A stretch of DNA of 53,208 nt from an uncultured Pelagibacteraceae bacterium (GTDB taxonomy: Bacteria > Pseudomonadota > Alphaproteobacteria > Pelagibacterales > Pelagibacteraceae). The notes under the pieces are model-generated. The model was not told where the DNA came from. It searched no databases and was given only the letters and a program-made list of their open reading frames with translations. The stretch is from the NCBI GenBank assembly GCA_902607585.1, contig CACLKP010000004.1:1-53208 (forward strand), given 5' to 3'. Below are positions 3 to 14,222 of this stretch, piece by piece (the stretch's first letter is position 1; each line of letters starts with the position of its first letter). The position numbers and the translations under genes were made by a program.

Positions 3-662
3 CTCTCAGGACATTACATTGATGTAAAACATCCAATGATCACAGAGAATCTAATGGGAATAAAGCGAATATTAGGAAGCTATCAAAAGGCAAAAAAACC
101 AATACTTATTAATGATTTAAAATCAATTGTTGATGTAATTGATAAAGACAAAAACGAAAAAAATAGATTTAAAAATAGAGCTTTAATTCTTTTGGGATTT
201 TCCGGAGGATTTAGAAGATCTGAGCTTGTGGCGATTGAACACGAAGATTTAGATTTTGTAACTGAAGGGGTAAAGATATTTGTAAAAAGATCAAAAACTG
301 ATCAATCTGGTGAAGGAATGATTAAAGCAATCCCCTACTTTTCTAATACAAAATATTGTCCTGTAACATCATTAAAAAAATGGATTGATAAATTAGAACT
401 TAAATCAGGAAAAATTTTTGACATATCAGATAAAAGTGTTGCATTAGTCATAAAGAAATATACTTTTTTAGCCGGACTAGACCCAAACAAATATTCAGGA
501 CATAGTTTACGTTCAGGTTTTGCTACGTCTACTGCTGAGTTAGGAGCTGAAGAAAGAAGTATTATGGCTATGACAGGACATAAGACTACACAAATGGTAA
601 GACGTTATATTAAAGAAGCAAATTTGTTTAAAAATAATGCCTTAAATAAAATTAAAATTTAA
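3..662 (+). CDS. Tyrosine recombinase / phage-type integrase, 5' partial
   Basis: This is the catalytic C-terminal domain of a site-specific tyrosine recombinase. Such enzymes cut and rejoin DNA through a tyrosine-DNA intermediate, usually to move an element into or out of the chromosome. Counting from the ATG at 36, the catalytic set is visible: Arg60 in GGFRRSEL, His156 and Arg159 in GHSLRSG, His182 in TGHKTT and the nucleophile Tyr191 in MVRRYI. The frame stays open upstream to the window edge (position 3 onward reads LSGHYIDVKHP), so the ATG at 36 is probably internal and the N-terminal core-binding domain lies outside. An FkbM methyltransferase gene begins 1 base after its stop. The family is certain; whether it is still mobile is unknown. 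Confidence 0.85.
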   Translation, partial: LSGHYIDVKHPMITENLMGIKRILGSYQKAKKPILINDLKSIVDVIDKDKNEKNRFKNRALILLGFSGGFRRSELVAIEHEDLDFVTEGVKIFVKRSKTDQSGEGMIKAIPYFSNTKYCPVTSLKKWIDKLELKSGKIFDISDKSVALVIKKYTFLAGLDPNKYSGHSLRSGFATSTAELGAEERSIMAMTGHKTTQMVRRYIKEANLFKNNALNKIKI

Positions 663-13505: not shown

Positions 13506-13967
13506 TTAATTTATTGAAACGTAATTTTTTTTGTTCATTTTAGCAAAATCGATAATCTTCGGATTTTGAGATTCGTGCGGATGCGTAGTTCCTTTGTAAA
13601 TTTTCAATTTAGAGAGCTGTTTTTTTGCTAGCGGTCCTTTTGGAAGCATCCTTTTAACGGCTAACTTCAAAATTTCGTCAGGTTTTTTTTTTATCAATAT
13701 AGATGGAGTAGTGGTTTTAATTCCACCAGGATAACCTGTGTGTCTATAATATTTCTTATTTCTATTTTTTTTACCTGTAAATTTAATCTTCTCTATATTA
13801 GTAACTACAACAAAATCGCCATTATCCATGTGTGGAGTATATTGGGTTTTGTTTTTGCCTCTTAAGGCTTTCGAAATGTATGCAGCTAATCTACCAACTA
13901 TTGCGTTTTCTGCATTTATTAAAAGCCAATTATTTTTTATCTCATCTTTTTTAATAAAATCTGTCAT
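13506..13967 (-). CDS. rplM: 50S ribosomal protein L13
   Basis: Large-subunit assembly protein L13. The start at 13967 (MTDFIKKDEI) is preferred over the open frame to 14009, which would place the coding region over the promoter. The core shows WLLINAENAIVGRLAAYIS, GKNKTQYTPHMDNGDFVVV and KRMLPKGPLAKKQLSKL, all family hallmarks. Length 153 is close to the usual 140-155. It heads the minus-strand run to recJ and is divergent from metY, sharing the 13968-14222 intergenic region. Confidence 0.97.
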   Translation of the reverse strand: MTDFIKKDEIKNNWLLINAENAIVGRLAAYISKALRGKNKTQYTPHMDNGDFVVVTNIEKIKFTGKKNRNKKYYRHTGYPGGIKTTTPSILIKKKPDEILKLAVKRMLPKGPLAKKQLSKLKIYKGTTHPHESQNPKIIDFAKMNKKNYVSIN

Positions 13968-13979
13968 TGTAACTCGCGC

Positions 13980-14009
13980 ATAATTACTGAGATTAATAGT
14001 CAATGTCAA
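13980..14009 (-). promoter_or_regulatory. Possible rplM promoter
   Basis: On the minus strand a perfect -35 box TTGACA (14009-14004) is followed after 18 bases by AATTAT, a 4/6 match to the -10 consensus. It would give a very short leader before the rplM ATG at 13967. This is sequence matching only; in so AT-rich a region chance matches are common. Confidence 0.35.
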
Positions 14010-14032: not shown

Positions 14033-14061
14033 TTTACATTCAATATATTTTTTAGTTAAAT
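14033..14061 (+). promoter_or_regulatory. Possible metY promoter
   Basis: TTTACA (14033-14038) and TTAAAT (14056-14061) are spaced 17 bases apart. Transcription would start near 14068, just where the first SAM aptamer begins, which supports the assignment. Matching is imperfect and AT background is high. Confidence 0.45.
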
Positions 14062-14065
14062 ATAG

Positions 14066-14110
14066 ATAGCCGATTTGTATCAGATTGCGGGCTTTAAACT
14101 GCTAAAATGA
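14066..14110 (+). promoter_or_regulatory. SAM-II/SAM-V-type riboswitch, first aptamer
   Basis: A compact H-type pseudoknot can form. P1 pairs AGCC (14068-14071) with GGCT (14090-14093) around a loop beginning GATTTG and ending ATTGCG. P2 pairs GCG (14087-14089) with TGC (14100-14102), the latter followed by TAAAA. The GATTT...ATTGC...GCTAAAA series matches the SAM-II/SAM-V consensus known upstream of methionine genes in marine alphaproteobacteria. It is directly followed by an intrinsic terminator, so SAM binding probably favours transcription termination before metY. Assigning SAM-II rather than SAM-V needs a covariance model. Confidence 0.75.
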
Positions 14111-14116
14111 ATGTTT

Positions 14117-14144
14117 AAAAACCGCCGTATGGCGGTTTTTTTTT
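14117..14144 (+). terminator. Intrinsic terminator between the two SAM aptamers
   Basis: The stem ACCGCC (14121-14126) and GGCGGT (14131-14136) closes a GTAT loop, is flanked by A residues, and leads into a run of nine T (14136-14144). It is the clearest intrinsic terminator in the window and sits about 80 bases before the metY start, so it can act only as a regulated attenuator for that gene. Confidence 0.9.
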
Positions 14145-14156
14145 ACCGAAATGATT

Positions 14157-14216
14157 GGCTAGGTATTTGACTATATTGTGCACCTTGAATTTTTCTAAAG
14201 CACTAAAAAAGGAGAC
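14157..14216 (+). promoter_or_regulatory. SAM-II/SAM-V-type riboswitch, second aptamer at the metY ribosome binding site
   Basis: P1 pairs AGGT (14161-14164) with ACCT (14082-14085 after adding 100, i.e. 14182-14185) around the loop ATTTGACTATATTGTGC. P2 is a perfect pseudoknot of GTGC (14178-14181) with GCAC (14200-14203), followed by TAAAAAAGGAG. The GGAG at 14211-14214 is the Shine-Dalgarno sequence of metY (ATG at 14223), so ligand binding would tie up the region just before the ribosome site. This is the layout of SAM-V-type translational control. It is the second of a tandem with the aptamer-terminator unit upstream. Confidence 0.75.
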
Positions 14217-14222
14217 AAAAAA

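Follow-up and report, generated by a model that had tools for sequence, protein, structure and literature searches.

A predicted bi-mechanism tandem of SAM-II and SAM-V riboswitches upstream of metY in a Pelagibacteraceae genome

Results and Discussion

The leader of the metY gene in a Pelagibacteraceae (SAR11) genome, assembled as 43 contigs totalling 724 kb, very probably constitutes a bi-mechanism tandem SAM riboswitch, for which we infer SAM binding and switching from the sequence. Members of SAR11 are among the most abundant bacteria in the ocean. The window is the entire 53,208-nucleotide stretch of DNA analysed, and within it 190 bases hold the promoter, a SAM-II aptamer, a terminator, a SAM-V aptamer, the ribosome site and the start codon (Table 1). 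The core of this finding is not new, as bi-mechanism tandems have been described in 149 cases, with SAM-II terminating transcription and SAM-V blocking translation (PMC9481103), and metY tandems are widespread in the Pelagibacteraceae; a claim that tandems at metY are novel was dropped, given how often they occur in genera g2 and g4. The metY leader additionally contains a predicted antiterminator and a complementarity between the two aptamers (PX), both of which are undescribed as far as we found, in a body of literature that excludes the founding SAM-V paper.

Table 1. Positions of features in and around the metY leader of the window.
Feature	Coordinates	Strand	Evidence
Divergent gene in rplM position	13506..14009	-	ORF; HTCC1062 neighbours from PMC2704228
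Probable sigma-70 promoter, TTTACA 14033-14038, 17 nt, TTAAAT 14056-14061	14033..14061	+	direct reading
SAM-II aptamer (by homology)	14067..14112	+	model R1 match 14067-14108, 36 bits; P1 register
Predicted antiterminator hairpin	14087..14125	+	folding, arm permutation
Intrinsic terminator, AAAACCGCC-GUAU-GGCGGUUUU + U run	14118..14144	+	terminator scan, folding, relatives
SAM-V aptamer, ribosome site within 3' part	14152..14217	+	RF01826 58.7 bits
Putative PX 3' strand GAUUGGCU, complement of SAM-II 5' arm AGCCGAUU (14068-14075)	14153..14160	+	complementarity across leaders
GGAG ribosome-binding site of metY	14211..14214	+	sequence; 8 nt 5' of ATG (14223)
metY, O-acetylhomoserine sulfhydrylase, 442 aa	14223..15551	+	TIGR01326 573 bits, cut-off 495

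The divergent gene to the left of the leader is one that we take to be rplM, from its position and our own reading of its sequence. The order rplM-metY at this locus is the same as that published for HTCC1062 (PMC2704228).

The SAM-V and SAM-II aptamers

An earlier note on this DNA had proposed two SAM aptamers in series with a terminator between them, and this is borne out, the coordinates given there being right to within a few bases. The classes that it suggested also hold, with a SAM-II predicted to act on transcription and a SAM-V on translation, as does the placing of the second aptamer next to the metY GGAG. The Rfam search that the note called for gave a divided answer, in that SAM-V was found and SAM-II fell below its threshold. 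The promoter, the antiterminator and the SAM-II/SAM-V complementarity were absent from the note.

The second element is assigned by its sequence as a SAM-V riboswitch lying over the metY ribosome site. A search of the whole window with Rfam matched RF01826 well above its gathering threshold of 41 bits (E 4.8e-7), and the perfect four-base P1 and P2 that had been noted earlier are present as AGGU 14161-14164 with ACCU 14182-14185 and GUGC 14178-14181 with GCAC 14200-14203. The element forms an H-type pseudoknot with the Shine-Dalgarno GGAG in its 3' end and a bulged U14204 in P2, which matches the bulged U of the crystallised SAM-V, in which U47 touches the SAM adenine (PMC6061858). SAM-V has been verified biochemically in the bhmT, mmuM and metY leaders of HTCC1062 (PMC5069961).

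The first element is assigned as a SAM-II on homology and pseudoknot structure. RF01726 scores it at 18.9 bits, under the cut-off of 44; the same cut-off is reached by none of 60 relatives' genomes, nor does Rfam list the bhmT-leader SAM-II of HTCC1062, even at E 0.5. Because these positive controls fail as well, the Rfam SAM-II score is a poor test in this clade, and the assignment therefore draws on other evidence. (The genome used as HTCC1062, G069, was recognised by coordinates, its SAM-V and SAM-II matches lying inside the published metY, mmuM and bhmT intergenic regions.) Other weak Rfam matches in the leader (Phe_leader, RefA1, isrK and others) were attributed to chance, the sequence being A+T-rich. 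A model, R1, was built on 32 SAM-IIs, all of them from bhmT or metX leaders, with all metY leaders excluded, and searched against the window's own genome, where the metY element is the third-best match (E 6e-7), behind the bhmT leader and a metX-type leader at 71 bits each and ahead of a candidate at 19 bits. It shares the core GAUUU/UUGC/GC-U-AA with the bhmT and metX SAM-IIs.

The element folds as a pseudoknot of P1, P2 and P2a, with GAUUU as L1. P1 (14068-14071/14090-14093) is of the AGCC/GGCU type and has only four pairs; P2 (14085-14088/14101-14105) has four pairs and a bulged U14103, and P2a (14080-14082/14108-14110) has three. The P1 register is 88% paired, versus 29-56% when it is slid. 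GAUUU, UUGC, GCUAAA and the P1 3' arm are conserved across 41 distinct leaders with variable flanks, and in some leaders P1 is altered on both strands, to ACC/GGU in the HTCC1062 mmuM leader (L163) and to GUC/GAC in L176. L176 and L177 (genomes G030 and G033) both carry the GUC/GAC version of this SAM-II-like element before metY, and a SAM-V match is absent from both genomes.

The promoter in Table 1 is probable, and TTTACA-N17-T(C/T)(T/A)AAT is also present in the leaders of four relatives (L003, L007, L004 and L138/L165); 14033-14061 is absent from the output of a generic promoter scan. Transcription would probably start near 14067-14068, about the first base of SAM-II P1, which would place SAM-II at the 5' end of the RNA. 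A longer helix between 14053-14063 and SAM-V was dropped, since 14053-14063 coincides with the probable -10 region and would thus lie outside the transcript, and the leader was refolded from 14067.

Terminator and antiterminator

The terminator is the one found by the terminator scan, with 0.2 expected, and is kept in all window-type relatives; 14060-14146 folds with an energy of -22.3 kcal/mol (z -2.8). The predicted antiterminator pairs GCGG 14087-14090 with CCGC 14122-14125 and UUUAAAC 14093-14099 with GUUUAAA 14113-14119, its strands reading GCGG[GC]UUUAAAC (14087-14099) and GUUUAAA[AA]CCGC (14113-14125). It consumes the P2 5' strand and the P1 3' strand of SAM-II as well as the terminator 5' arm, and would thus exclude both SAM-II and the terminator. 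By energy folding, which leaves out pseudoknots, the antiterminator is the lowest-energy fold of RNA prefixes ending at 14124-14130, and the terminator replaces it once its 3' arm has been made.

Seven distinct window-type leaders likewise have the antiterminator as the minimum-energy structure of this segment, L138 only weakly, since shuffled sequences do as well there (z -1.0). The 5' arm comes in three forms (UUUAAAC, CAUUAAAC and UAUAAC), each matching its own partner, and across the seven leaders the arms pair better with their own partners than when swapped, only 36 of 5040 permutations being equally good. These compensatory changes in related leaders argue that the metY leader has an antiterminator of its own, mutually exclusive with SAM-II and the terminator.

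Complementarity between SAM-II and SAM-V

The PX 3' strand lies flush against SAM-V P1 and is complementary to the SAM-II 5' arm, a putative inter-aptamer helix linking the two sensors. Across leaders, the SAM-V-adjacent bases (up to 17) were compared with the SAM-II 5' arm against shuffles. At p<=0.05, the PX complementarity is present in 32 of 35 rows with a GCC-type P1 and no terminator, in four of six GCC-type rows with a terminator, and in none of 40 GCGC-type (bhmT-type) leaders with a terminator; the rows are related to one another, so that the p-values are descriptive, and the named rows were checked by eye. Leaders L132 and L135 fall below significance through parsing only, and a separate test gives p 0.005 and 0.045. 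In that separate test the automatic typing put metX leaders among those without a terminator and the window among the bhmT-type ones. The partner pairs are G-U in the window group, A-U in L138 and G-C in Pelagibacter, and the HTCC1062 mmuM leader has ACC, GGU and GGU on the three strands.

Related leaders and their distribution

The HTCC1062 bhmT tandem also has SAM-II, a terminator and SAM-V over the ribosome site of a SAR11 methionine gene, and differs from the window in its gene and in its GCGC-type P1. In bhmT-type leaders a different antiterminator is possible, between GCUAAAGCG and the terminator-loop sequence CGCUUUAG, whereas that of the window would pair the P1 3' arm and L3 with the terminator 5' arm; PX is also absent from leaders of the bhmT type. 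The window genome carries both kinds, the bhmT-type one at C1:33082-33253. Many g2 and g4 genomes have tandems of the bhmT type upstream of metY, with two aptamers and a terminator as in the window but a GCGC-type SAM-II and its own antiterminator.

Among 397 genomes of the family, only seven have window-type leaders (R2 above 89 bits), all of them in genera g1 and g6, with a diverged form in two more named single cells (L054 and L055). Five leaders in genus g1 have the tandem (in G000, G018, G019 and G007, and of the bhmT type in G008), and both aptamers are absent in many close relatives. In one genome (G072; L133/L164) MetY is 96% identical to that of the window and the leader is without both aptamers. 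Leaders of metY are labile, and gain or loss of riboswitches at this gene is fast in the group of the window and G072. Genome G008 has near-identical bhmT-type tandem leaders before metY (L030, C33) and bhmT (L008, C29), suggesting leader duplication or gene-to-gene swapping, or else assembly mixing, G008 having 5% contamination. In four bhmT leaders (L008, L009, L162 and L178) a short ATG-started frame lies between the SAM-V ribosome site and the bhmT start, and as it directly follows that site, the first target of SAM-V may be a leader peptide.

In genus g3, which includes HTCC1062, the metY and mmuM leaders have a SAM-II-like element about 25 bases upstream of SAM-V and no terminator. With R1 these elements score 15 to 31 bits, which is weak singly, and the core is kept in all that were read. 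The HTCC1062 elements are at 161-203 (+) in the metY leader (L161) and 266-308 (-) in the mmuM leader (L163), leaders that have been published with SAM-V only (PMC2704228); a review places the SAM-II of a tandem always upstream of a terminator (PMC9481103). The HTCC1062 metY leader thus shares with the window the rplM-metY locus, SAM-V, the PX complement and an upstream SAM-II-like element, and differs in having no terminator and a SAM-II of only 18 bits with R1.

Proposed mechanism and alternatives

The layout of SAM-II, terminator and SAM-V over the ribosome site of one gene is that of the tandems predicted elsewhere to work by termination and translation block (PMC9481103). With transcription starting at about the first base pair of SAM-II, the nascent RNA at low SAM would form the antiterminator, the P2 5' strand, P1 3' strand and L3 pairing with the terminator 5' arm, and transcription would read through. 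With SAM bound, the SAM-II pseudoknot would keep these strands, the terminator would form and transcription would end at about 14144. On read-through mRNA, SAM-V would bind SAM and hide the metY GGAG. The earlier note had called this an AND-type off switch, which does not fit, as either bound aptamer is expected to suffice; the logic would be OR for OFF and NOR for ON, expression needing both aptamers to be empty.

Alternatively, SAM-V could be the sole SAM sensor, with SAM-II a decayed relic and the hairpin acting simply as an attenuator or terminator. The sub-cut-off Rfam score and the short four-pair P1 point this way, as does a leader lost or never present in many close relatives, and together with the score and P1 the L138 fold also counts against the tandem mechanism. 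We regard a relic as decidedly improbable given a SAM-II core and P1 3' arm kept in 41 distinct leaders despite variable flanks, the two-sided P1 changes, and antiterminator arms that change together. It is also unlikely, if somewhat less so, that the antiterminator and PX are chance pairings of an A+T-rich leader; the leaders are related and non-independent and SAM-II already constrains the PX 5' strand, yet PX separates GCC-type from GCGC-type leaders and its partners change in matching fashion, including in HTCC1062 mmuM.

The two aptamers might also act fully independently and unlinked, as in the published tandem model and as seen for bhmT in vitro, where there was no synergy (PMC11508383). 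This is a serious possibility, somewhat short of even, against which stands PX, which would join the SAM-II 5' arm to the SAM-V edge in the window leader class. Under the preferred tandem mechanism, a free SAM-II 5' arm and the SAM-V-adjacent bases could form PX, which may link the sensors. A tentative extension, which we consider rather doubtful, is that the SAM-II 5' arm serves as a three-way switch strand and that the hidden SAM-II in HTCC1062 metY and mmuM acts through PX alone. In the SAM-bound state the arm would pair with the P1 3' arm of its own aptamer, and in the unbound state with the SAM-V-flush sequence, the first aptamer reporting its state to the second, and in these HTCC1062 leaders two SAM aptamers would sense in a coupled manner without a terminator.

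When the bhmT tandem is probed as full-length RNA, its SAM-II no longer responds to SAM (PMC11508383). This counts against the proposed mechanism, since termination control by SAM-II is only putative even there; competition from a conserved antiterminator would account for this silence. Methionine genes of HTCC1062 are under SAM riboswitch control. In this strain metY mRNA and MetY protein are up on sulfur limitation (PMC5069961). The SAM-V of HTCC1062 metY is the one that was crystallised; should a SAM-II lie upstream and base-pair with the SAM-V flank, work on this switch will have left out half of the sensor. If true, this would also bear on the silencing of SAM-II by the linker in the bhmT tandem, because conserved antiterminators compete with SAM-II strands.
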